A stretch of 64,000 nucleotides of DNA from Lophium mytilinum. Its lineage: Eukaryota > Ascomycota > Dothideomycetes > Mytilinidiales > Mytilinidiaceae. Where the stretch lies: the NCBI GenBank assembly GCA_010093605.1, contig MU004181.1, positions 248,001 through 312,000 of the forward strand, read 5' to 3'. A program made the translations under genes and the position numbers. Shown in pieces: positions 13,608-61,281 of this stretch. The notes under the pieces were generated by a model. That model saw only the letters and a program-made list of their open reading frames with translations, was not told the DNA's origin and did no database searches. Position 1 is the first letter of the stretch, and the number at the start of each line of letters is the position of its first letter.

Positions 13608-14499
13608 ATGGCTCAACCTGCGACCCTCCAGCAAAACCGCACGCTCATGGCCGCCGCGATGCTGCCTCGCATGGTACGTAAGATCTTCCGACGTGAAGCG
13701 GACCTGCAACTAACATGGCCGTCAGGTGCAGCTTCCCGGACGCCAGCTTCCCTACCGACAGCTCGCTGTCATAGCATTCGTCATCAGCAAGATGACTACC
13801 TTCACGAAAGAGATCTCCTTCGGCACCTGGCCTGGCTCGATAATGGGCTTCTCGCTCGGCTTTGGGTCCCGTATCCCAGGGAAGATCTGGGCCTCGTTAC
13901 CGCTACTCCACGTCTGCTCTTACATTCGCGGCGTCGTCCTTCCCAAAATCCTCTCCAACAACCGGTTCAAGGCCTGTGGCCTTGATGCCTACGGGTTCTT
14001 CTGCGGACAACTACCAACTCCATTGCTTCCATTTCTCCACCACGTCACCATTTCCGTCCAAAATAGCATCAACTATCTCCGGGACCGAGGCGGCTTGGGA
14101 GCATTGAAGCAGTACAATGGACTCAGGTCACTCACCTTCGTGCTGGAGCCCATACTTCCCGAGCCGATGGATACCACCTGTGGACGATATTCGAGAGAGA
14201 TACTAGACGCACTACGGACCATCTTCTTCGACAGGGAACTTGCTACGGCGGAACCTATCGTGGCCCTCTCCATTACTGGCAACGTAGCGACGTTTGCAAC
14301 CGGAACACTCCTCCTCGAGGCTGTGAGCACGGAGCCGGAGGATCGAGATCCTGAGACCACCGCCCGCCTGATTGCCCCCATTCGTCTCATCCTGCAATCA
14401 AGGGCACGCAATGAGTTGTTCAGAGCGGAGCGCAAGCAGGCGATCGCGGACCGACGCCAGTGGATGAGTGCCAATGGTGTCCCGTTTCCCTCTCTTTGA
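13608..14499 (+). CDS. Conserved-looking hypothetical protein, 279 aa, two exons
   Basis: Exon 1 (13608-13673) reads MAQPATLQQNRTLMAAAMLP then RM and stops at a GTACGTAAG donor. A 52-nt intron ending in GTCAG gives a phase-0 join to exon 2 (13726-14499), VQLPGRQLPYRQLAVIAFVI. The exon stays open for 257 codons with balanced, protein-like composition. Features: hydrophobic N-terminal third (IMGFSLGFGSRIPGKIW, LLHVCSYIRGVVLPKIL); a strand-like PLLPFLHHVTISV; a helix-rich C-terminus with charged RAERKQAIADRRQWM before the end. The GTG at the start of exon 2 is not a start; the spliced ATG is preferred because both splice sites and frame agree. The order leader, phase-0 intron, LP-rich motif recalls the 2EXR-like genes in the window, but the C-terminal GRL module is absent. 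No enzymatic or DNA-binding motif is seen. Likely a real gene of unknown function. Confidence 0.65.
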
Positions 14500-15022: not shown

Positions 15023-15782
15023 ATGACTGCTTTAGTAAGTTTCTCGACCCTTTCACTAGCGGAAGAGATCTTGCTGTCAATGAATTCCATTTTCTAACCG
15101 GCATTGCAGGCTTCTCTCAACACCATGCGCTGCGTGGCACGACGTTCCTTCTGCTACGTAAGCATGGAGCCCATCCCAGCCGTATGTCCATATCTGCCCC
15201 CACTCGCGGCCAGCTGCATGGCTAACATAAACTGCCTAAACTAAGCAAGGAGACTTCATGGGGCTAAACGCCTTTTATCCAGACATCATCCTCCAAATGC
15301 GCCTCTTTCCCAATTTTCAGATCCTCTACTGCAGTGACGGCGGCTTGACCGGTCTCCTGAATAGAGTCTGGATGATACCACCTGCGTACTGGACCCAGAT
15401 CTTCGGTCTAGTGGTCGCGGAAGGATTGGGAGCACCACCGCATGTACATGATGCGCTTATGGATCACGTTCTATGGCTTCCCAATCTCAGCTTCATTGTG
15501 ATCACCGAGACGGCTACCAATCCGTTAATGTATCGCGCAATAGTTGCGGAAATTCAGGATTCCTTAGCGGCTCGACTGGATCGGTTTAGACAACACCCCC
15601 GGATTTTGTCAGGACAGGTCAAGATTCTATTCATCGCCAACGAGCTCCACATTGATCGATGGCGAGCTCTCGTTGACGCGCAGCGCGCAGCAGGCATGCA
15701 AATCGTGGGCGCTCCTTCGGCCGCTCTTGCTCAAGAGCAGAAGTGGCTCGAGCAGCGTTGGTGGAACATATTCCCGCACTAG
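15023..15782 (+). CDS. Hypothetical protein, about 206 aa, three exons
   Basis: Exon 1 (15023-15034) codes MTAL and ends at GTAAGT. Intron 15035-15109 ends TTGCAG. Exon 2 (15110-15181) reads ASLNTMRCVARRSFCYVSME then PIPA, ending at GTATGT. Intron 15182-15245 has a GGCTAACAT branch and ends CTAAG. Exon 3 (15246-15782) reads QGDFMGLNAFYPDIILQMRL and stays open to the stop. All joins are phase 0. The last exon holds a leucine-rich strand LPNLSFIVITETAT, a helix with RLDRFRQHPRILSGQVK and the end EQKWLEQRWWNIFPH. No named domain is recognised; LPNLSFIVI is reminiscent of leucine-rich or F-box-associated strands. It follows the 13608 gene on the same strand at 523 bases and shares the short leader plus phase-0 intron design, so the two may be distant paralogues. 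An alternative is that exon 2 ends earlier at CTACGTAAG. Confidence 0.55.
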
Positions 15783-26882: not shown

Positions 26883-27307
26883 CGTTGGTTGGGAGAAGAA
26901 ACTGATACTTTTCTTGTTGTTTCCACAATTTGGTGCAAGGAATATGTGGAGCTTGAACTCCTGAGCGAGGGCTTGATTCTGTCTTGCAACGCGCGGTAGC
27001 GTAGTTGCCGCATAGCACTAAATATTCAGACAAATAGAAGATAAAATGACATGCGACGGGGGCTTCACATTTTGAAACGCATGATTGAAACGAACTCCTT
27101 ACGTAAGCGTCCTGATGGGTGAATGGTGGAGACCGCGCGCTGCCGTAGAGCTGTGCGCTTGCCACGCCTCCTTCTTGGCCTAGCTCGCCATCCCCACCTA
27201 CCACGAACATCAACCACGACAACCGTACGAACCAGTCGTGCAAGCCCAGCATGGGAGACCGCCGTACTGCCGCGCACGGCTCGGGTACTGCCGCTGCTGT
27301 CGGTGTG
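26883..27307. other. Intergenic, upstream of the family gene at 27308
   Basis: No convincing reading frame. At 26816-26862, just before this stretch, a 24-bp unit (GTGGATGGATATACT.. type) is repeated twice. This 425-bp region would hold the promoter of the next gene; no element can be named. Confidence 0.35.
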
Positions 27308-28444
27308 ATGCTCAATTGTCGGCTGACGCTACCTCCCCCACAGGTTGGTCCCGCGCCTATTGTACTCTCAAGGTGCTCAATTACTAAACTGCGCCGCAGA
27401 ATTTCTCGGTGATTCTTGCAGCTCAACAGGCGCAATCCCAATCTCAGGCAGAGCTGGAGGGCTCTCAGCCTTCAGACCAGTTGCAGAAGGACTACTTCGG
27501 TCCGCCCCACCACCATCATGTCGGGTTTAGGTACTTTGGCCCGGAAGAAGAGAAGGTATGTTTTCTGCCCTTTATAGCGCGCCGCATCAAGACACTTACA
27601 CTCTGGATAGAGCGGTGTTGGTTTCTTCTCCCTGCCACGAGAATTACGTGATCAGATATACGAAGAGTCTGCGACAAACGGTGGCTTGGCAAAGGTGTTA
27701 TGGACGGATCCCAGAAAGCGCAAGGTCATCGTCGAGAACACTACGGATCCTGCTCTGACGGCTACTCTGAGCGCGCTGCAAGCGGTCCACCCGCAGGTCG
27801 CAGGGGAGGCCCCGGAGAGGGCTTGGACTTATACGACCCCACTCGTGGACGACTCCCGCCAATTCCTCGCCTTCAAGAAAAAATTAGACACAGAGACCGT
27901 CTTAGGAGAGCCCAAACTATCCAACCGCGTCAAGTCAGTGGCCTTTCGCCGCCTTGCTGGACCATACGCCAACAGAGCCATGGAGAAGTTGTTGGGAATG
28001 AAGAAGCTGAAAAAGGTGTTCATCGTCCCAAAGAAGGTACCACGCGCAATGAATGCTCGCCCGGATGCGTATCGTCGCACCCAAACCGCCATGATAAACC
28101 AGCTGTTCAGTTCGCCCGCCATTGTCCGATTCTGTCAGGACCTGTTGGAAAAGCAAAAGGCCCTGTCTTTTGACGCAAACCTGGACAAAGCGTTTGAGAA
28201 GCACGAGAAGACTCGGGCTAGGTGTAGGGCGTTACCGATGGGTGGACGTCTTGGGGATCAGGTCAGAATGCAACAAGCAGAAGAGCTCAATGAGCTTTTC
28301 GCTCAGGAGCGCAATCAAGCCATGCGAAGCCTTTACAGCGAGCAGATCGAAGCCGACACTGAAGAACTATCTTCGCTGAAAGCGAGAACCCGAGCGGTTC
28401 GTAAGAGACTAGCAAGTCGGAGAAAGCACCATGATGCCCTCTGA
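27308..28444 (+). CDS. 2EXR-like family member 1 (341 aa, three exons)
   Basis: Exon 1 (27308-27343) codes MLNCRLTLPPPQ; intron 27344-27399 (TTACTAAAC branch). Exon 2 (27400-27555, 52 codons) is Gln/Ser/His-rich disorder, AAQQAQSQSQAELEGSQPSD to a GTATGT donor. Intron 27556-27610. Exon 3 (27611-28444) opens SGVGFFSLPRELRDQIYEES, the LPxELR-type motif of 2EXR/F-box-like proteins (about residues 72-83). Then follow VKSVAFRRL, a strand KKVFIVPKKV (about 200), a helix DAYRRTQTAMINQLF, and the family module SFDANLDKAFEKHEKTRARC (about 240-259) with PMGGRLGDQV. The C-terminus is highly charged, probably a coiled coil ending RRKHHDAL. All introns are phase 0. Function unknown; 2EXR-type proteins are widespread and expanded in ascomycetes without defined roles. 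No signal peptide or catalytic motif. The exon model is inferred but mutually consistent with the 32170 gene. Confidence 0.75.
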
Positions 28445-30151
28445 TCCCCTTCCCTTTCATGTAAGTAGCTACGAAGAGCTTGAGGCGGTGTTCTGTGATG
28501 TAGGAGTAGTTGCCACAGAGGCCACTCCGCACATAAAAGGCGAGAAGAAGGCTTGACATTCAAATATAATCTCTTCCTTCACAAGAAGTAATCAATGCCA
28601 GTATGCTCAACTCGGTGGAGGCAGAGTATATAAATAACTATTTTCATCCAGGTCATCCTATTATGCACATCATCAACTGTCTTGTTCACCCTTATGCCAC
28701 ACATGCCGCCATTCCACCGCGCCCTTCTATATTTCCCAGCCCAAGAGCGAATTCATATCGTTCTACAATGAAGATGATCAAGAGTCACGATTACTGGTTC
28801 ATTTCTGCACGCAAGACCGGGCTTCTAGAACCTCAAACAAGAAGAGATGTTTACGAAATGCAAAACGCGCAAACCTGCGGTGCACGGTAACCCATCTTGT
28901 GGAGTCTATCTTAGCCCTTCACCAATGAGCTTGGGAGTCTCCTTGTAGAATGGGATTCTCAGCTGTCGACTCCGGATTGCAGATCCTGCGAATGAGACTC
29001 CGAAATGTACAAGCTGATGTTTCCACCTCTCTCGCATTCGCAAGCTCCGAAAAGCTCGAGATTGGGAGGCGTAAGCCGGCGGTGCAGGAACACTCATGCT
29101 GGGCGTGCTGTTCTTGACAAATATGGCTGAACGCGGAAGGTTCCTCGGCGTCTGACCGAATATGGTCACCAACTACCAATTTCATGGTTGGCGTTTCAAT
29201 CTCGACGGCATGAGTGTGTTGCGGCGCCTGGTCCTTGCACGTACTAGGCACATCAGCATCGACAAGCCGAGCAAGCCTTAAGAAAGATCACGAATAAACA
29301 CATTGTATAAATCTTTCTTGGGAATGTAGTATAGGAAACAAATGTTGGAAACCAATCAGGGGAGGCTAGTGACTGCCCGAATTGTCGTCCTATGTGGCAT
29401 CTTTCTGAACAGATGGTTGTTTGATCACTTGTAACTCTTGTGTCGCCCGCATTCTATGGCCGTGCTTTTACGTAAAGTTCCTTAATTGTTTCGAAGAATG
29501 CGAAACGGGTAAGGTGAACTTGGTGAATAAATTGAAGCCCTGAATCGCAGTGACTGGTTCGTAGAATAGGATATGTGATTGCAAGATCAGTGTCCGCATC
29601 CTTCGTTACCGCCGTCCGCATGATTCAGCCCACTGTAAATATTTAGTGGAAACCTATCAGTCTAAACAGCCTAGAATAGAGAGGTTTTACATAAGCTACA
29701 ATCGCCGACAAGACACATGACCTTGGAACAAACCGTACCTTGGCGCGAGAAATGCGAGTGGCTGGGATTTGAACCACAAGTCCTGGAATTTTCATTGTCA
29801 GCGTAGGGCTTCTCTAGTCTATCAGCACATCACTGTGGCCCCCTAGCGGCTACTCCATCTACATCACACTATCGACATTTCATCCATTCCGCTATCGGTC
29901 AGCAACTTATCCGAGCAGTTTGGCGCTCTACCAAGCCGAGCTCCGCCCCACGCAGCTCAACGTTGGTAACGCAGACGCTGAAAACGGGATCATAACAGCT
30001 CGTTAGACTAATATCGGTTCCAGAATTGCGGCAGCCTCCCACGAATAACGTCTCATTACCCCGGGCACGACAACCTCCCGTACTCCTACCACTACCTCCA
30101 ACCCTACGGCGACTACCTACAACCCTACAACGATCTACGCAGGCTCCCGTG
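28445..30151. other. Intergenic; degenerate tRNA-like remnant
   Basis: Around 29745-29850 (minus) a B-box-like GGTTCAAATCC and a 3' part AGCCACTCGC follow a long arm, and a loop with CTAGAGA recalls a tRNA-Ser (AGA) anticodon loop, but stems do not pair, so at best it is a mutated tRNA pseudogene or tRNA-derived repeat. Two overlapping minus frames at 28906-29251 have no motif. The remaining sequence shows nothing. Confidence 0.25.
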
Positions 30152-30828
30152 ATGTCACCCTTAGGACGCCAATCTAATAACGGGGATGTGGAAGAAGCTG
30201 TGCTTAGACAAGAGCTCGTCGACCGGCTTGCTGTCTACGGGGATGCGCCAGCCCCACAGCAGGTAAGCGTGCGTCACCATAGAATAACCATTGCTTAGGC
30301 TTATGCATTGAATAGGAAGGCCTCGCCGTCCGTCTTAGAGGGCACAACCCCATTCAAGTTCTTCCGGCAATTGTCCCCGCTTGGATGAATAATAACCTAT
30401 ACTCCTACATGGAATGCCAGACGCACTATATCAAGGCTGTCATCGCCGCTGAAAACGTTCTCGATGTATTCTTGGACCTCATGGCGGAACATGCTGCAAT
30501 CGGGGGACGCCTAAGTATCTTCTTCGCCTCCAATTGGGAAAATGCCGCCCAGGACTTCGAAGTGATACGGTTTCAATATCAAGCAGTGCTACCCAGCGGC
30601 AGGCTGGATGCTGATACAGTCCGTCAAATCTGCCTCCTTCTCGAGAGATACTGGGACTCCTTGCTGCGTGCAAGCCTTATCAAGCACATCAATCGCAAAG
30701 TGGAGGCGAAGATGTCCCACTACCTTGACCTCCTTGCCCGCCACCCAGATCGCAAAGATGAAATAGAAAGTATTGTGCAAGAGATTATTGAGCTACAGGT
30801 CTTGAGGGTCGACCACGTCCAGAAGTAG
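30152..30828 (+). CDS. 2EXR-like family member 2, N-terminally shortened (about 207 aa)
   Basis: Exon 1 (30152-30262) reads MSPLGRQSNNGDVEEAVLRQ and ends APAPQQ at a GTAAGC donor; the frame is open further upstream (Pro/Leu-rich from 30026) but without ATG. Intron 30263-30315, phase 0. Exon 2 (30316-30828) begins EGLAVRLRGHNPIQVLPAIV, equivalent to the IVP strand of the family, then a helix YMECQTHYIKAVIAAENVLD and the module FASNWENAAQDFEVIRFQYQ with SGRLDADTVRQICLLLERYW. Exon 2 therefore starts directly in the middle of the normal domain: the LPxE motif and about 100 following residues are missing, although the leader exon and the intron remain. It ends VDHVQK at a TAG; a further intron (GTAGGT donor, GCTAATAG acceptor at about 30886) would instead extend it by about ten residues. 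It may be a functional short form or a recent pseudogene. Confidence 0.5.
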
Positions 30829-31092
30829 GTACGTCTCATACTGGCAGTGCATAATCTTGATGCGTCGTACTGACATGGTGCTAATAGGAACGATGGTGCT
30901 CTGGCAGCTACATAAGGACCATGGTTTCTTGCCGGCTCTACATTCATTGCCTTCCAAGTTCAGACCGGCTGCTCCTAGGACGTCTTTGGCTGGGCGGAGG
31001 GAGTTGTGAAGGACGTCAGGCCAGACCAACTCTTGTTAGGCATGTAGCAACTAATACAAAATTGACGAGTACATACCATATATGCGACTACA

Positions 31093-31534
31093 ATGTCTTC
31101 TACTCTGCTCCATCGACCCCACTGTATGGAGTGCCTGGTGCAAGACGCGATTGTCCCCCAGAAGCCCCCATTTCCTAGAGCACGAAGTCCTTCTCCTTGC
31201 TATTACCCAGTGGAAGATCGTCAGGAAGCTGTTCAAATCGCTAAAGGTGGTAAGTCTTGCGAGGCATCTCAAGGAAGCACGGGAGAAAAACACGGCTCGC
31301 TGTATCTAGCTGTATCTTCAATCGAACTGGCGCAGCATCTTCAATGAGTTTGAGCGTGATCGACCGAAGTATAAACCACTCAGACCAGAAGGAAGGCTCG
31401 ACGAGAGGACTATAAGCTACCAAACTGGTAGACCAAAGACATTCTTTGAGTACATTCGGTATGGCGCGGTTAGAAAGCTGTACAAAAAGAATATGATAAA
31501 GGTGCAAGAGGTGATGATCAAGCTACAGGGTTAG
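31093..31534 (+). pseudogene. 2EXR-like family relic (C-terminal half)
   Basis: Homology to the family can be followed through three frames. Near 31130 the reading CLVQDAIVPQKPPFPRA matches the IVP strand; near 31180-31280 another frame gives EVLLLAITQWKIVRKLFKSL and LARHLKEAREK, matching the helix after it; from about 31325 to the stop at 31534 a third reads SNWRSIFNEFERDRPKYKPL, then PEGRLDERTISYQ, the family module. No N-terminal motif is found upstream. At least two frame changes separate the pieces. It lies between the shortened gene at 30152 and the intact gene at 32170 on the same strand, as expected for tandem duplication followed by decay. Confidence 0.55.
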
Positions 31535-32169
31535 TTGAACAATTCGCGTCGTAGATACCATGAACTACGAGAGAACGGCGGCGCCGATGTCTAATTGCTC
31601 GCCCTTGCTTTTTCCTACGATAGAGCGAGATGAGCGTTCCGATTCCGAAAGACCTGCCTAGTAGGCGAAGAAGATGTGACGGAAACCTTCCCTGTGTCAA
31701 TCATTTCTTTAGGATTCGGTAGGGTGAGTAGGATATTCCAAATAGGGTTTTGGCAGACCTCTTTAGAGGAGTAGTGTTGTGGATAGGCAGTATAATCCTC
31801 TTCTACTTTCATAAGCAATGATGTTGCTATCTGCGCCTGTGACTCGTAGCGTACTGCTGTGTCAACATTTAGCATATCCATGTACCAAGACCTATGGCCT
31901 ATTACTCTACACAGCTCCATCCGTTCATTTCTCGGGTGAATTATAGTAATAGTATGTCTATTAGCCTCCGCGTTTTATCTACTAGATAATTGCCTCGGTC
32001 ACGGGATGACCGAGCTCTTGGCCCAAGTGATTTCTAGCCACAGCGCCGTGCAAATCCGATCCCCGCCACCTCCATCTCCAAGTTCGGCGAACCTCGACTC
32101 TGTCAATACCAGTGAACAACAGCTTCAACCCAGGAAGCGCGGCCCCCGTTATTCCACTCCCTCATCACA
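31535..32169. other. Intergenic upstream of family member 3
   Basis: About 630 bases with short frames on both strands and no motif. The last 100 bases are CA-rich and lead to CATCACAATG at the next start. Confidence 0.35.
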
Positions 32170-33392
32170 ATGAACGTGCCAGCAGCGACTCAATCGACCC
32201 CGACAAATGTTGGAGCGCTACACTCCACCCCACTAGTTAGTCAAGGCAAAACGGGTCAACTATTACCTCTCAACTAAGATGCGTAGCAGAATCATGATGT
32301 AGCTTCTGCGACCTCTTCTGCCGCTCCATTAGTTCGCCTGCACCCTCCTCGATGCCCCATCTACCAGCCCCAAGCTCACACTCAGCAGGCTCCTACACTG
32401 CTCGCCGCCGCTCTGACTGCTGCTGTTAGAGGCAACCACACCAGAGTAGGCGATCCTTCCGACTAATTCAAAGGAAGCGTTCATACTGAAAATGTTCATA
32501 GAACGCCGCCCCATTCCCGTTCCTTGCGCTGCCCCGCGAGTTGGCTGATATGGCCTACGAATTTGTGTTCACGAACAATGGCCGAACCTGCGCGGTCTGG
32601 ACAACCGGCACAAACAAGCGGGAGGTGTGCCTCATCAATCTCAAGGATCGAGCTGTTACCCAGAGCTTTCATGCTCTGGCCTTGTCGAACATGAAGGTTT
32701 ACCTCGAAGCTTCCGAACGCTACTGGGCGAAAACCACTCCGGAGTTTGATAACGCTGAGCAATTCAACGCGCTCTGGGACCAGCTCAACGAAGAGCGTAC
32801 CGACGGCAAACCCAAAGCCTACCACCTCTTCAAGTCTATCGCGTTCAAAAATCTCAAGGGGCGCCACTCTATCAAGGCGTTCAAGCGCATCCTCCAGATG
32901 CCAAACCTCCGCCGCGTGGTGATCGTACCGCGTAAGGTATCCAAGAAGCTGAACGCAGCTCCAAATGCCTACTACAACTGGCAGCGCGCTGGATTCGACA
33001 GCTTTCTCTCTTCTCCGAAGACTCTGGACTTCTTAGTGAAGCTGAAGCAGAAGCGCATGGACGACGGCCGCCAGGCCCAGGTGATTGGCGGCCCTAACTG
33101 GTACAATCAAGCTTTTGACTACGAAGCGGGCCGACGGAAATGTCGGGCGCTGGGTCGGCCGGGAAGACTTCACTCGAACGCGATTCACCATGAAGTTGCG
33201 CAGTTGGAAGATTACTGTGACAATGAGCTTGCGAATAGGATCGATGCCCACGTAGCCAGTCTGATCCAGGCCAAGACGACCCGCATTCAAGAACTTGAAG
33301 CTGGTATTCGTACTCGGCGTGTAGAACTTCGGATCCGCAAACTTGAACATGAGCGCAATCGTCTCCGCGTCCTGAGGAACTCTAATGCCTAG
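32170..33392 (+). CDS. 2EXR-like family member 3 (371 aa, three exons)
   Basis: Exon 1 (32170-32235) codes MNVPAATQSTPTNVGALHST then PL; intron 32236-32286. Exon 2 (32287-32445, 53 codons) is Gln/Ala/Pro-rich (CPIYQPQAHTQQAPTLLAAA). Intron 32446-32501. Exon 3 (32502-33392) opens NAAPFPFLALPRELADMAYE, the LPxE motif at residues 85-88. Next come FKSIAFKNLKG, a strand LRRVVIVPRKV (about 210-220), helix NAYYNWQRAGFDSFLSS, the module GPNWYNQAFDYEAGRRKCRA with RPGRL (about 262-288), and a long charged tail (AKTTRIQELEAGIRTRRVE, then RIRKLEHERNRLRVLR), a likely coiled coil. The exon 2 length (53 codons) almost equals that of the gene at 27308 (52), which supports both models. All joins are phase 0. 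The TTG in frame at 32541 lies inside the motif and is not a start. Function unknown; charged tail suggests nucleic-acid or protein contacts. Confidence 0.75.
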
Positions 33393-35417
33393 CGGAACGA
33401 ATGAATACGTCGGTCACGGTGGCAAGCTCCCTCTTCCAACACTTCGTCATTATCTTAATTAACGGCAAAGTTAGCACCATGAGTGTAGCCACCACGATGG
33501 GCGATTCGGAAGGGAAGGCAGGTTTGAAATCGGGCGAAAATGAGGTGAGATAGGAAGGGCGGTGGGGTGCCTCAGGGCTATACATGCTTGTCACTAGCAC
33601 AGCCCGTAATACATAGACTTGATATTCAAGCTATGATAAAGCAATTGGGTAATCATATCATTATTCTCCTCAACTAATCATGCGTATTTCAGCGAGACAC
33701 GCCATTCTCAGCGCTGTCCGTCAGCCAACGGAGCTGAGTAAGCCATACTTACAAACATTTCCACCTTCATATTCGTTGTATGGTTGCTACGATGCATCTC
33801 CTACTAACTCCATCTCAACCATAAAGCCTGAGTGAACCCCAAGGACACCACTCGCCGTCAGAACTCCCAAGGCTATTCCGACGTCTTTAGTTAATGGGTG
33901 CATCACTGCAACATCGACAAGACCATGCGCATTCATACCCTATCCTTCCCTCACAGAACAAAATAAGCCTTCTTTGACCGACATACAAAAGCTACGTTTC
34001 TTCAAACACGTTAGCAAAACGTTTGAAAGCTGACCAAAACCTGGATCATTCGACTTTCCTGTTTTGGTTGACGTATGAAACCTTGTAGGATCTGAAATCT
34101 TTTGATCTGGTTGCCTCCAGCGTCTTGCATCTATGCCATTTTCGAAGTGTCTAAGAGTAGCACAATAGCCTCATTACAAACTTGAAGGTATTTATTGCGG
34201 CATGGTCACGCCGTTCGAAGAGACCAGGCTCGTACATCCAGCCTAGCGCTTTGGGGTCCTCACTATATCTGTTCTTCTGCCCTATCAATCACGCGCACTA
34301 GTCTCCGCTGCGAGTGCAGATGCGCGACTGCCATGTCGGCCTTCTGCTAGAATTGCACGAAGCCGGCCAACTGAAACGATCCTCGCAACAAGCTGGCAAG
34401 CGACGCGCACGCGAGAGGGTATATACCTCTTGTCCCGAGACCCATGCGGGCCGCCCAGTGGAGACTGCAGGGGTATGGTCCGTGTCGCCCAGGAAGCCAC
34501 TGGCGCGGTTGGAATGAAGTTTGCATTGGAACTCCTCTTATCGATCCTACGATCGTGAACATGCTAGCATTGCTTGAAATCACGCCAGATAGTGGCGGGC
34601 GACCCACAAGCGTTGCGCTCGCAAGCTACCGAGAAGGGTTGTGTTTAAAAGATGGGAGGGGCATGCAGTAACTTGGGGCGCTGAGTCCGTTCGCGCACGG
34701 ATTGCTGACATGGAGACAACGGTGGGTGCACCTTGACTGAATTCGAGGAAGAAGTAGAAGCTCCGAACTCCTAATGTTTGAAGAGATTGCGAGCTTCCCG
34801 TCCATTTTTGCGTTTTTGATTGGGCTGGGAGTTCTTTCTGGATCGTAGACAGTCTATAAGGAAAAAACTATGGCAATTGAGGTATTTGCGGCGACGTAAA
34901 TAGCGGGTCTTTCTGGTTCCTTTGGCGAGGAAATAACTCTTCCGAGCACGTTCTGGATCATTCTTCCCCCTTCGCGCTTGTGGTGAAGATGATCTGGCTC
35001 CGTTTTGATATGTTGCCCAGGTAGTGACCGCGATATGGGTGTTCTAGTATAATCGTAGTTAGCATGTTTATGATACCATTGGTGTTAACAGGAAAACAAG
35101 TTGTACTAACAGGAAAACAAGTTGTAGTCTCGTGATGGGTGTCTTGAGCTCTGAAAGATCTGAAGCACATTCAGCAGCAATGAGACTCTGTAGAAAAAAA
35201 TTGGTTTGATTCGTAATCGCCAGCGAGCAAGGGTGGCTCGGAAAGCTCCCGACGCGAAGCGCTCGGTTAGCTAGCCTGGCTTTGGACTTTGGCGAGAGGT
35301 TTGCTCTAAGTACTCACAACGACACCGCCGTCTCCTGCGTGTACACCTTCAACAACAATATCTACGACAGCAGGTCTACAGATTGCTTCGCGTTCCACTG
35401 CAGCTGCTCAAGGCGCG
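33393..35417. other. Intergenic; small tandem repeat
   Basis: No supported gene in about 2 kb. A 21-bp unit (TAACAGGAAAACAAGTTGTA type) occurs twice in tandem at 35086-35127. A frame open from 35310 into 35459 (Thr/Ser/Ala-rich, ACTPSTTISTTAGLQIASR) is probably an upstream part of the leader of the next gene, whose true start is uncertain. Confidence 0.35.
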
Positions 35418-36473
35418 ATGATCACTTTCGGCGCCGCGGGAAACACCGCTCGCTCACAGGTACGCCACTCCCGAATGATGAAACTCTCCTCTTTTAGCCT
35501 GGATTGCTAATCGAGCTACTAGCCCTTTCGCATGCAAGATTTGCCGGCGGAGATTCGACAGAAAGTCATCGCCCAGATGTGCTGGGGCAAGATTCTGGAG
35601 TTCTCTTGGAATGCCCCTCCTGCGCCAAACACCGCCCTCGGGCCCGCGCTCGTTGTCAGATGCCAGAGAGATCCGTTGCTCGTACCAACCCTCAAGGCTC
35701 TAATGCTTGTAAACAAGTTGATGGCCAACGAAGTGCCGCGTAATGCGTGGCCAAACATGATCCTGTTCTTCGAGGCTCCTCGACAGCTTACCGCCCTGGG
35801 CAGGGTTCTTCACTTTGCTGGTAGCTCCGACTTGAACGAGGACGAGCAGCCTATTCGCCCGCACACGTACATCCGGTCTGTCGCATTCAAAGAGCTTCCT
35901 GAAATTCCAGAACCTGGTGCGTACGATTGGTTCAGGGACATGCCCGGCATCAAGGGCATCACGGACATCATCGTCACCCCTCGCATGTGGATCCCCAAGC
36001 AGCATCGGAGAAAGCTGGAGGCGTTCCGCTTGACTCAAGCGGATCATATACAGGCTCTGCTCAACAACGTGTGGAATCTCCGGCTCCTCGTGGATATCGA
36101 GATTGCTGAGAAAAAGAGGGGGGACGTCGTTGGGAAAACTCGCTTCATTTTCGATCCCAACTTCGACGACATGTGGCTCAACTTCGAGCAGACCCGTCAT
36201 CTCCGCCCAAAGCTTGAAAGCAAGAGATACACTGTCGAAGAAGTCACCGCCCAAGCCGAGGCTCTTGCGTCCGATTTCGTCATCCGACGTGATCAAGGCC
36301 GTCTTTCCTACGCCAACAAGGTGATGCCTATAATCAAGAAGACCATCGAAGACAAGAAGCGGCATATGGAGGAGCTGCAGAAGTGGACCGATCGGCAGGA
36401 AGACAGGCTACAGATCATGGGCGTATTGTACACAGACCCCACAACCGGCGCCGCATCCAGCAGCAGTGGCTAA
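35418..36473 (+). CDS. 2EXR-like family member 4 (about 330 aa)
   Basis: Exon 1 as modelled (35418-35459) codes MITFGAAGNTARSQ, but the same frame is open to 35310, so the real leader may be longer with an additional 5' exon as in members 1 and 3. Intron 35460-35522 (GTACGC donor, GCTAATC branch, ACTAG acceptor), phase 0. Exon 2 (35523-36473) opens PFRMQDLPAEIRQKVIAQMC, the LPxEIR motif, then LKALMLVNKLMANEVPRNAW (second 2EXR-like helix), IRSVAFKELPEI, a strand TDIIVTPRMWIPK, helix KLEAFRLTQADHIQALL, the module FDPNFDDMWLNFEQTRHLRP, and a coiled-coil tail (MPIIKKTIEDKKRHMEELQK). The GRL tripeptide is replaced (KRYT), so this is a divergent member. It ends in a Ser/Gly run. A minus-strand frame of 221 codons over the same region is a shadow. 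Confidence 0.75.
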
Positions 36474-36856
36474 AGAGCAGGAGGTAGGAGGAAGGCTAGT
36501 GTAGTTCTTACGATCTGAATACTATCCAAACCTCTTGCTGAATAGGCCGTGTTGACCTTTCATGAAGCAGCCTTTGCCGCCTTCCAACTTCTTATGTCCT
36601 GATTCACTGCTCTCCAATCTTGCTAGAAAGCACAACATTACCCACCGTGAAAGCGTTAGGTTAACTAGTGCACAAAGTGAAACCACTACATTTCGAAGAG
36701 GTAAGGCCTATATTTTCTACTCTAGGTTTCCTCCACTAACCGATCCGAAAACTCCTGTATCGCCCACACCACCACCACACACTTTGATTCAGTCACACCA
36801 AGGCCTATCCGCAGCACACTTGTCCCCCAAAACACCCTCTATCCCCACGTCACAAA
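36474..36856. other. Spacer between family members 4 and 5
   Basis: 383 bases. The final 120 are CA-rich and G-poor, typical of a fungal leader, and run into CACAAAATGG at the next start. No other feature. Confidence 0.4.
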
Positions 36857-37871
36857 ATGGCGTCTGCAGCTGCCGCCCAGCCGGCTGAAAATGCGCAGTC
36901 TTCCAATCAAACTCAAGAGGTTTGTACCCCTTTCTAATGCCGACTCCCGCTTGCCCGTATGCTAACATTACAAACAGGCGCCGAAACCTTTGACGTTCCG
37001 TGGCCTCCCCGGAGAAATGCGCAACATGGTCTATATCAGCCTCGTGGAAGGAGCCGTGATCAAGTACTCCTATAATCTCCGTCGCGGTCCCTTCCGGTTG
37101 ATCAGCGAAATCCCCAAGAACCCAAAACTTCGAGCCACGCTCGCTACCCTTGCTGAAGTGGACGAGGACCTTGGAAACGAGGCTATGGGACTATTCACGG
37201 AGCTGTCACGCCCAGAGTTCGAGAACATTCATCAGATGTCGTTGATTTACGACGCCGAAGGACCCAGAACTGAGTTGGAAACGTACCAGTGGAAGGACAA
37301 TGTTCGGGTCGTCGGGTTCTCCAAGCTGGAGCCGGGCCGCCACGCTGGCTTCGGGAAGCTCGTGGATATGGTGAAGAATATGCCACTCCTCCGCGAGGTA
37401 GCCATCGTGCCTTCGAAGGTCCCACAGAACAGCAACCCGGAGCCAGACGCGTTCTACAACCAACAGCGCTGGTTTATCCGGCGCATTCTGGCCAAGAAGG
37501 ACAATGTGATGCTCTTCCGGGAAATGAAAAAGGCTCGGCATGAAGGGGAAGAGCGGGCGAGGGTGACCTTCCGCGCCGATTGGGACGACGCCTTCGAAGC
37601 GCACGAGAATAATCGTCCAAAATGCCGTAAACTTGCTGCTAGCGGAGGTAGACTGACTGCCGAAGTTCGTTTGAGGCAGACGGAGGAGCTTCGGGTCTAC
37701 TTCGACGAGCAACTTGATCAGGCTTTGGATGGACTCTTCAGGGAGAACGTTGAGCGGGACACGCGGCATGTGGTGAAACTCAATGCAGATCTGGCGAAGC
37801 TTCAGGCAGATATTGCTGTCGCCGAAAAGGAACGTATCGATGAAGAGACCCTTTGGGCCTCCAACGCCTAG
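36857..37871 (+). CDS. 2EXR-like family member 5 (318 aa, two exons)
   Basis: Exon 1 (36857-36919) codes MASAAAAQPAENAQSSNQTQ then E, an Ala/Gln-rich leader. Intron 36920-36977 has a GCTAACATT branch and ACAG acceptor; phase 0. Exon 2 (36978-37871) opens APKPLTFRGLPGEMRNMVYI, the LPxEMR motif at residues 31-36. Then VRVVGFSKLEPG, a strand REVAIVPSKVPQ, helix DAFYNQQRWFIRRILAK, the module FRADWDDAFEAHENNRPKCR with SGGRLTAEVRLRQTEELRVY, and a coiled-coil tail (VKLNADLAKLQADIAVAEK). This is the best-preserved and simplest member: start context, splice sites, motif and module are all clear. It lies 383 bp from member 4 on the same strand. The track start at TTG (36990) is internal. No catalytic residues recognised; unknown function. 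Confidence 0.8.
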
Positions 37872-38869: not shown

Positions 38870-39650
38870 TTCCAATATTCAACGCGCTTCGCCGTCCTAA
38901 CCGCGACCTTAGCTCTTCCTCGATCCTCTACACAAGCAACACCAGCCCACCAACACCGCCGCACCAGCTCTTCGAGCCGTGGACCTCGTAAGTAAAACAC
39001 TCTTTGATCCTCGTTCTCCGCGAGCACTATTTCGAAAAAATGATGAGCTTGGCTTGACTCAAGAGAGTCATTCTGGAACGCTGATGGGGTCGTTCTGACA
39101 CTTCCCAAAAGCTATACTGTTGGAAACCCGATCTGATCCTGGCACTGCATCTGCTTCCTCTTTTTCTCATCTTTTTCAAAGCCAGGACACTAACGTCTTT
39201 CTCAGCCGCCTTCGCCGTCGCTAACCATGCCGCCAACTTCGCATGGTTGTGTTCTTAGTCTCGACCTCGCCACACCATCCTCCACAAACGAACACACCGC
39301 ACCAGTCTTTCAAACCGTCAACCTTGTAGGTAAAGTCGCTTTCATCCTCGCTCCCCACAAAATACGCTTTTTTTTGGAAATGATGAGTTTCACGTTAATC
39401 CATTCCTGATACGCCGTTGGGACGAGTCGTTCTGACTCGCCCTAATAGCTATGTGGATCGAAACGGCAATCTGATCTACGCTACATACTGCTCCTTTTTG
39501 TGTCGTTTTCCTCCAAGCTTGGTGGCTAACATCTTTTGAAGCCGCCGTCGCTGTCACCAACAATACCGCCAACTTCGCATGTCTCGCTGCGACTACAGTA
39601 ATCACTATGCCGGTCAAGGCAACCTCTGTGGATCTGAAAGCGACGGACTC
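38870..39650 (+). repeat. Tandem repeat of about 335-340 bp, two and a third units
   Basis: Matching anchors: AATGATGAG at 39039 and 39379 (340 apart), TCGTTCTGAC at 39090 and 39427 (337), and a CGCCGTCGCT../CCAACTTCGCATG block at about 39207 and 39541 (334), with a weaker first version near 38887. Units 1 and 2 each contain a Thr/Ala/Pro-rich frame ending at a donor (GTAAGTAAAA at 38989, GTAGGTAAAG at 39328). In unit 1 that frame reads MTSFQYSTRFAVLTATLALP, which could pass for a signal peptide. So the unit looks like an old exon-intron block, now diverged. No intact gene can be built. Confidence 0.55.
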
Positions 39651-60158: not shown

Positions 60159-61281
60159 ATGGCTACCCACGATACCCGTTACAACCAAGTACTAGGAGCC
60201 ATTGGTACCGCACCGACGTATCCACTTCTCCAACCGGTGCCCGCGGACTCGATCCTGCACAAGAACATCCAAAACTTCATCGATCTCACGTCGCCTCAAT
60301 ATCCGCCTCAGCCTGCGCATGGTGCCACATATATTGCCTCGCAGCCTGTCGCTCATGCCGAAGACGTGGTTCGTGTTCCAACGGCTACCGCGGCGACGAG
60401 TCCGCTGCTAATTCTTGGAATAGGCCACAGTCCCTCGGTCTCTACTCCAACTGCCAGCGAAATTCATGACGCAAGTATTTGAAGACGCCGTTGGTCTGGA
60501 GGGGCCACTGCAACGTAGAGCGCTGGGCTACTCCTATCTCGTAGCAGATCCTCCCGCCGACAACTTCCTGCCGACGAGATTCCGGGTCGAAGATGTGCTG
60601 AATCCGGATTCGATCACGGACTACCTGGCTCTAAGCTTGAGCTGCCAGACACTCTACGCTGAGGTCGGCAAAGCTTTTTGGAAGCGCAAATTCCCGGCGG
60701 GGGACTGGACGAGAGTCTCCGACACACTGCTGCCACTTGCCCGCTCCAAAACCGACTCCAACTTCCTGCATTTGATTCCCGCCATCGTGATCACAAGCGG
60801 CAGTAAGCAGAACGTCCGCGAGAGTTGCGACATCATCCTCGTCATGCAAGGGCTGAAGACCTTGACATTTGCCGGCCTCGGCGAAATCGATCCAACTGTT
60901 CCAGTGCCACCCACGTTCGTAGCGCGCAACACGACCTATATTGATCAGCTACTTTGTCAAGAGTCAATGTGGTTCTGGGACCTCTTAGAGCAGAAGGGTG
61001 TCAAAGTCAAGTTCGATGCTGACTACGAAGCGGCGTACGAGAAGCATGAGGCTGGGTGGCGTAGATTACACCTCCTTGGGAAGGTTCACACGCCTTGCCG
61101 GACCGCTACTCAGAGGGAGGCCGACTCCACCTCCCTAAGCCAGTATTTCGACACTGAGTTGGTTCGCCGCCGTCAAATCTTCACAGATGTCGTACATCGA
61201 GCTCAGGCGGCCAGAGAAGCTTCCCACGCGCAACAGGCGCAGAAGCCTCAACAACAACGACCTCGACGACACACCACGTAA
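60159..61281 (+). CDS. 2EXR-like family member 6 (354 aa, two exons)
   Basis: Exon 1 (60159-60365, 69 codons) codes MATHDTRYNQVLGAIGTAPT, continuing Pro/Gln-rich to VAHAED. A 58-nt intron (60366-60423: GTGGTT donor, GCTAATTC branch, GGAATAG acceptor) joins in phase 0 to exon 2 (60424-61281), ATVPRSLLQLPAKFMTQVFE, where LLQLPAKFMTQVF is the LPxE-type motif in its usual place after the intron. Further on: YLALSLSCQTLYAEVGKAFW (second 2EXR-like helix), a strand LKTLTFAGLGEI, helix FVARNTTYIDQLLCQ, the module FDADYEAAYEKHEAGWRRLH and a Gln/Arg-rich tail (AQQAQKPQQQRPRRH). GRL is replaced by GKV. Without splicing, exon 1 would end at a stop at 60480-60482, and the ATG at 60466 would begin in mid-motif; the spliced model is preferred. 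It is the most divergent intact member and lies 22 kb from the main cluster. Confidence 0.65.

Follow-up and report, generated by a model that had tools for sequence, protein, structure and literature searches.

Tandem clusters of F-box genes are found in nematodes, and those of C. elegans have pseudogenes among them; these genes are described as thought to act in pathogen resistance (PMC5041008). For the fungus Macrophomina phaseolina, a further report records that no F-box cluster was seen (PMC7991009). On the 2EXR family (PF20150), the DPCfam paper goes no further than to suggest that its two ExR motifs may matter for function (PMC9621593). A literature search on the 2EXR and DUF7730 families showed no paper assigning a function to these proteins, and a search of titles and abstract openings found none describing an array such as the one presented here. 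This is a tandem array of a 2EXR/F-box-like gene family in the ascomycete Lophium mytilinum (assembly GCA_010093605.1, 43.18 Mb in 24 contigs). Part of it lies within a stretch of 64,000 nucleotides of contig MU004181.1 (hereafter C1), C1:248001-312000, which we call the window. Whereas the nematode F-box arrays amount to hundreds of genes in many clusters (PMC5041008), there is one cluster here and its members carry a different C-terminal module.

The window most likely covers the right-hand portion of a single old tandem array that extends over C1:171.6-309.3 kb and probably to 314 kb. A sequence-only reading of the window had described a cluster of 10.6 kb; the observation was correct and understated, as the array is about 13 times longer. 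The whole assembly was searched with nine members as queries (G1 to G6 from the window and U183, U211, and U218 from upstream of it) and with one probable member, D313. These searches placed 18 copies or remnants over C1:171594-309278 (138 kb), seven of them in the window and eleven upstream, the latter near 171.7, 173.4-174.7, 179.2, 183.5, 188.5-189.0, 197.2, 211.6, 213.8, 217.0, 218.7, and 221.1 kb. C1 was read continuously over 169.0-188.5 and 194.5-322.0 kb. The copy at 173.4-174.7 kb has one TAG in its match, possibly within an intron, and the copy at 188.5-189.0 kb contains stops. D313 (C1:312961-314085) is a probable 19th copy, and its own genome search matched itself alone. No full copy was found outside the array in these single-sequence searches of the whole 43.2 Mb, and the family is confined to one locus as far as the searches reached. 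Outside the array the searches returned a partial relative at C1:494.9 kb, described below, and a match at C1:3583305 (E 0.93), where an LPxE gene lies that matches DUF7730 and 2EXR below threshold. 2EXR-type proteins are themselves numerous in this genome, with 71 matches to the Pfam model, 44 of them over the cut-off (two of these only together with their neighbours), on 19 of the 24 contigs and none inside the array. Three plus-strand 2EXR matches, two of them below the cut-off, were seen downstream of the array at C1:373-389 kb.

On the plus strand of the window, a row of family members at 27251-37871 comprises four genes that are intact, one that is shortened, and a relic; a fifth intact gene lies at 60159-61281 (Table 1). 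This arrangement had been proposed in the sequence-only reading and is borne out by spliced models and by leave-one-out scores. The splice sites of the six gene models, which remain predictions, were picked by reading the sequence; all six models are complete, with start, stop, and GT-AG introns, and the eight introns are all phase 0 and 51-63 nucleotides long. In exon 1 of G1 the first in-frame ATG is at 27251, and position 27308, previously taken as the start, is the second. G1 carries LPRELRDQIYE, IVPKKVP, and the C-terminal module, and has sub-threshold 2EXR matches of 15.3 and 16.9 bits. The shortened gene G2, used as a genome-search query, matched G3 at E 6.3e-6.

Table 1. Members of the array in the window and parts of G5 (positions are those of the window)
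Feature	Position	Strand	Basis
G1, intact, 360 residues	27251..28444; exons 27251-27343, 27400-27555, 27611-28444	+	spliced model; leave-one-out 146 bits
G2, shortened, 207 residues, C-terminal half only	30152..30828; exons 30152-30262, 30316-30828	+	spliced model; leave-one-out 30.0 bits, E 1.5e-5
Relic of C-terminal half, two in-frame TAG in its match	31208..31537	+	whole-assembly search
G3, intact, 371 residues	32170..33392; exons 32170-32235, 32287-32445, 32502-33392	+	spliced model; leave-one-out 132 bits
G4, intact, 330 residues	35418..36473; exons 35418-35459, 35523-36473	+	spliced model; leave-one-out 67 bits
G5, intact, 318 residues	36857..37871; exons 36857-36919, 36978-37871	+	spliced model; leave-one-out 116 bits
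G5 N-terminal 2EXR/F-box-like part (LPGE helix, beta-hairpin, two helices)	36978..37262	+	alignment; hhalign of family N-terminal part versus the genome's 2EXR segments; model
G5 C-terminal module core (strand 195-198, then HE..R helix, up to GGRL)	37557..37655 (approximate limits)	+	alignment; C-terminal module profile; model
G6, intact, 354 residues, most diverged window member	60159..61281; exons 60159-60365, 60424-61281	+	spliced model; leave-one-out 86 bits

The six window genes belong to one family, beyond chance, as the sequence-only reading had held. Comparison of their proteins with phmmer gave E values of 1e-40 (G1/G3), 3e-29 (G1/G5), 3e-11 (G1/G4), 1e-9 (G2/G3), and 8e-5 (G1/G6); the database size was fixed at 6, and the G1 leader exon used was one base off, outside the reported matches. 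In a leave-one-out test, 16 members (the five intact window genes, G2, nine upstream genes, and D313) were each scored with a profile of the others, and 15 of them reached 30-210 bits versus at most 10.3 for shuffled copies. The remaining one, D313, which lies outside the window, scored 15.0 bits (E 0.52) against the profile of the other members, its shuffles reaching at most 1.5. The length of an open reading frame (ORF) alone is weak evidence, because random windows also contain frames of 280 codons (longest stop-free frame in 30 Markov-1 random windows: mean 217, maximum 280). The motifs that had been described as shared fared unevenly. LPxE is near-invariant across 15 aligned members, but the C-terminal pattern proposed earlier is matched exactly by G1 and G5 only, the relic, G2, G3, G4, and G6 deviating from it at one position or more; by reading, the upstream members mostly have E-E-x2-R there. 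GRL is present in G1, G2, G3, G5, and the relic and absent from G4 and G6. Full-length members share as little as 11% protein identity.

Profile comparisons indicate that the N-terminal part of the family is homologous to 2EXR over the whole domain. Aligned by hhalign with 30 2EXR segments of this genome, it gave a probability of 97.4 (E 3.3e-11, 87 columns), while eight column-shuffled versions reached 0.2 at most, and the family's N-terminal profile found 15 of 31 scattered 2EXR loci at E<0.01, the best shuffled hit being at 1.5. The LPxE helix, the hairpin, and the helices that follow all take part in the alignment. A 2EXR-like N-terminus had been suggested from the window alone, and the suggestion holds, yet the Pfam 2EXR cut-off of 24.8 bits is reached by none of the members, the best score being 16.9 bits for a G1 fragment, and the model matches just one of 15 N-terminal segments. 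The array members also differ from 2EXR in mostly lacking ExR at LPxE, which is present in 4 of 15 members versus 26 of the 30 scattered segments (one of which, L036, was read in the wrong frame). Two ExR motifs occur in 2 of 15 members (first 110 residues) versus 7 of the 30 segments, and because so few of the 2EXR segments show two, the second ExR is a poor divider between the groups. The array family has, in addition, its own C-terminal module and a single locus, whereas the 2EXR genes are dispersed. DUF7730 (PF24864) matches five of seven scattered LPxE relatives that were scanned, two of them over the cut-off, but none of the array members scanned.

In some upstream members the same N-terminal part also resembles an F-box, perhaps one split by an insertion. 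Among the 15 N-terminal segments, the F-box model matches five, F-box-like four, and F-box-like_2 three (PF00646, PF12937, PF13013), mostly below cut-off. These matches come from five of the nine upstream members (U197, U211, U213, U216, and U220), and none of the five matches 2EXR. A fragment of U211 passes PF12937 at 24.5 versus 24.3 bits, in two stretches. In several upstream members the LPxE[LI] helix matches positions 1-15 of the F-box profile. For two members, U197 and U220, its second half (22-45 and 22-42) aligns as well. A contiguous F-box domain of about 45 residues is not what these members present, since the second-half match lies about 50 residues past LPxE. The AlphaFold2 model of G5 exon 2 (predicted local distance difference test score, pLDDT, 83.4; predicted template modelling score, pTM, 0.75) has a helix at 12-23, strands at 27-32 and 41-44, and helices at 51-61 and 63-76, an order that would be compatible with an F-box carrying a hairpin insertion behind the first of its helices. 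In the model of G6 (pLDDT 75.2, pTM 0.67) the helices follow one another in this order too, and the hairpin region is longer; the two predictions are not independent, because both were built from the same six window sequences.

Behind this N-terminal part lies a C-terminal module that alternates strands and helices (strands 111-114, 140-143, and 195-198 in G5) and ends with an F...HE..R stretch and a long helix. Profile searches showed this strand-helix module in the array and at none of the other loci examined. A profile built from 15 members, which it finds by construction, also found two array copies outside its set (U174, 1.2e-13; G2, 1.7e-4), and it found none of 31 scattered 2EXR loci, out of 71 match places, at E<1 (best shuffled hit 0.14). 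When the upstream and window modules were compared as separate profiles, the probability was 92.3. A profile-profile comparison of the module with 2EXR is no test of its absence there, because that alignment holds N-terminal segments only. The module had been thought not to be a named domain, and this stands in the libraries searched: Pfam gave nothing over cut-off, PDB sequences gave best E values of 0.38 and 0.58, and Foldseek gave no fold match in PDB (best E 0.15) or BFVD (best E 0.24). The family, which has no model in these libraries, appears to be of a 2EXR/F-box-like kind with a C-terminal module of its own.

The pattern known from substrate adaptors is that of many tandem copies in which a conserved docking-type N-terminus is joined to a C-terminal module that has diverged. 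The most likely reading of the array, which we favour tentatively, is that its members may be diversified F-box-type substrate adaptors. The N-terminal part would dock on Skp1 or an equivalent partner in the fashion of an F-box, the C-terminal module would recognise a different target in each paralog, and that target would then be ubiquitinated or sequestered. If the split F-box reading is true, a large class of fungal proteins to which no function has been assigned could be tested for a role as ubiquitin-ligase adaptors.

Several results weigh against this account. The proposed mechanism rests on weak F-box scores: only 1 of 15 N-terminal fragments passes an F-box cut-off, the full U211 ORF falls below it at 19.0 bits, no scanned window member matches an F-box model, and the second-half pieces, scanned separately, gave an F-box match in 1 of 10. 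F-box proteins are represented in PDB, yet profile searches of its sequences turned up no relative (best E 0.18) and Foldseek gave no fold match there (the best E being that given above for the module). The window relic was missed by the C-terminal module profile (E 4.6). As to the single locus, U211 also matches C1:494894-495295 (E 4.3e-6) over the N-terminal and middle part, and diverged copies elsewhere may have been missed, because the searches use single sequences and score the best candidates only, while members share down to 11% identity.

The main rival explanation we regard as possible but somewhat less probable. Here the members would be 2EXR-type proteins and not ubiquitin adaptors, the LPxE part would be some other structural or partner-binding domain, the long C-terminal helix of the window members would serve dimerisation, and the array would be a lineage-specific branch of the 2EXR superfamily with an added C-terminal module. 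The strongest domain signal is indeed the homology with 2EXR; in the window, where F-box matches are lacking, G1 matches 2EXR and not F-box, and the long C-terminal helix is predicted in both G5 and G6. This explanation is less easily reconciled with the upstream part of the array, in which five of nine members match F-box models and none of these matches 2EXR. In addition, 2EXR may itself be derived from the F-box, in which case the two readings overlap.

A bolder form of the adaptor reading extends this overlap, and we consider it unlikely as a whole, though worth stating. The locus would then be a fungal single-locus repertoire of diversified substrate adaptors, akin to the clusters of F-box genes in nematodes or of NLR genes in animals, in which the F-box is split by a beta-hairpin, the 2EXR superfamily is F-box-derived, and a new recognition domain diversifies in a genome where repeat-induced point mutation (RIP) forbids recent duplicates.

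The relationships among the copies bear on how the array grew. The tree built for 15 members has good support for 5 of its 12 inner branches. One branch (88/90) sets the nine upstream genes apart, and G1, G3, G4, and G5 group together (99/98); U179 pairs with U183 (100/99), U197 with U211 (100/99), and U213 with U218 (83/88). G6 and D313 form long branches of unsure placement, and the five intact window genes are not one group. Tree distance grows with chromosomal distance, both for the 15 members (Mantel r 0.64, p 1e-4) and for the nine upstream genes (r 0.73, p 0.006). The closest pair shares 48% protein identity, and no near-identical copies were found among 15 coding segments (a set without U216), whose best DNA match is 78 nucleotides at 72%.

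Traces of RIP are also present at the locus. An AT-rich block inside the array at C1:198.7-210.2 kb (L072 from ~4200 and all of L060) has 26% GC and strong RIP indices, with a TpA/ApT of 1.77 and a CpA+TpG index of 0.09 in its main part. The first 600 bases of C1 resemble the block and also have strong RIP indices, and no telomere repeat was found in them. The six window genes have no RIP signal (composite index below 0), and the relic is at 0. Like the short introns and the 2EXR genes, the RIP traces are in keeping with an ascomycete. Because there are no near-identical copies among the segments and a strong-RIP block interrupts the array, the births look old. The copies would have arisen through successive tandem duplication and stayed in place, and in a genome with RIP traces only those duplicates that had diverged enough would have survived. 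The sequence-only reading had proposed fast local birth-and-death evolution, which proves half right: local duplication and death are supported by the tree, by the relation between position and relatedness, and by the relics, so that deaths and old local births are visible, but recent births are not. The array therefore raises the evolutionary question of how at least 18 tandem copies grew and stayed put in a genome with strong RIP traces.

The visible deaths raise the further possibility of genomic drift, in which duplicates would be retained by chance with little or no function and would slowly decay. Stops interrupt the match in three cases (the window relic, the copy at 173.4-174.7 kb, whose single TAG may be intronic, and the one at about 188.5-189.0 kb), and one gene is shortened. 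Drift nevertheless seems improbable, as long open frames are retained by 14 members that are 11-48% identical to one another and all five long window genes permit complete splice models, whereas one would expect stops throughout neutral copies of such divergence.

Confinement to a single locus and the AT-rich block with RIP indices within the array would also suit an array that was carried as cargo by a giant mobile element or introgressed as a block. We hold this to be the least probable of the explanations and give it little credence: no recombinase or transposase model was found in the 20 stop-to-stop ORFs scanned, a partial sample; the six genes, at 51-56% GC, resemble the window at 52%; and the copies diverge by degrees along the array, which suggests that it grew where it stands.

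Neighbouring sequence and individual loci provided a few minor observations. None of the neighbouring ORFs scanned (20 stop-to-stop frames in two sets of 10, one of which includes two possible relatives) gave a Pfam match over cut-off. Nothing bearing on the family came from scans for Rfam families, tRNAs, tandem repeats, and repeats. Two window ORFs that look alike by eye, 13714-14496 and 15240-15779, were considered as distant members and rejected, scoring -0.3 and -1.8 bits versus 0.7 and 0.9 for shuffled sequences; the first drifted into an iterated profile at 2.5e-4 once 2EXR genes were included. The minus-strand ORF L069:4627-5448 (C1:316.6-317.4 kb) has LPAE and WH..E..R and scores 5.7 bits with the N-terminal profile versus 4.9 shuffled, which is suggestive only. 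About 180 kb from the array, at C1:494.6-495.3 kb (L075:256-1026, minus strand), an LPxE gene scores 27.6 bits against the N-terminal and middle part of the family. Directly downstream of G5, at 39089-39581, lie two direct repeats that are 74% identical and about 336 nucleotides apart. Finally, one family member on the minus strand (L071:4449-6932; C1:183.4-185.9 kb) has an unusually long N-terminal extension, with an 828-codon frame and an RG-rich stretch.

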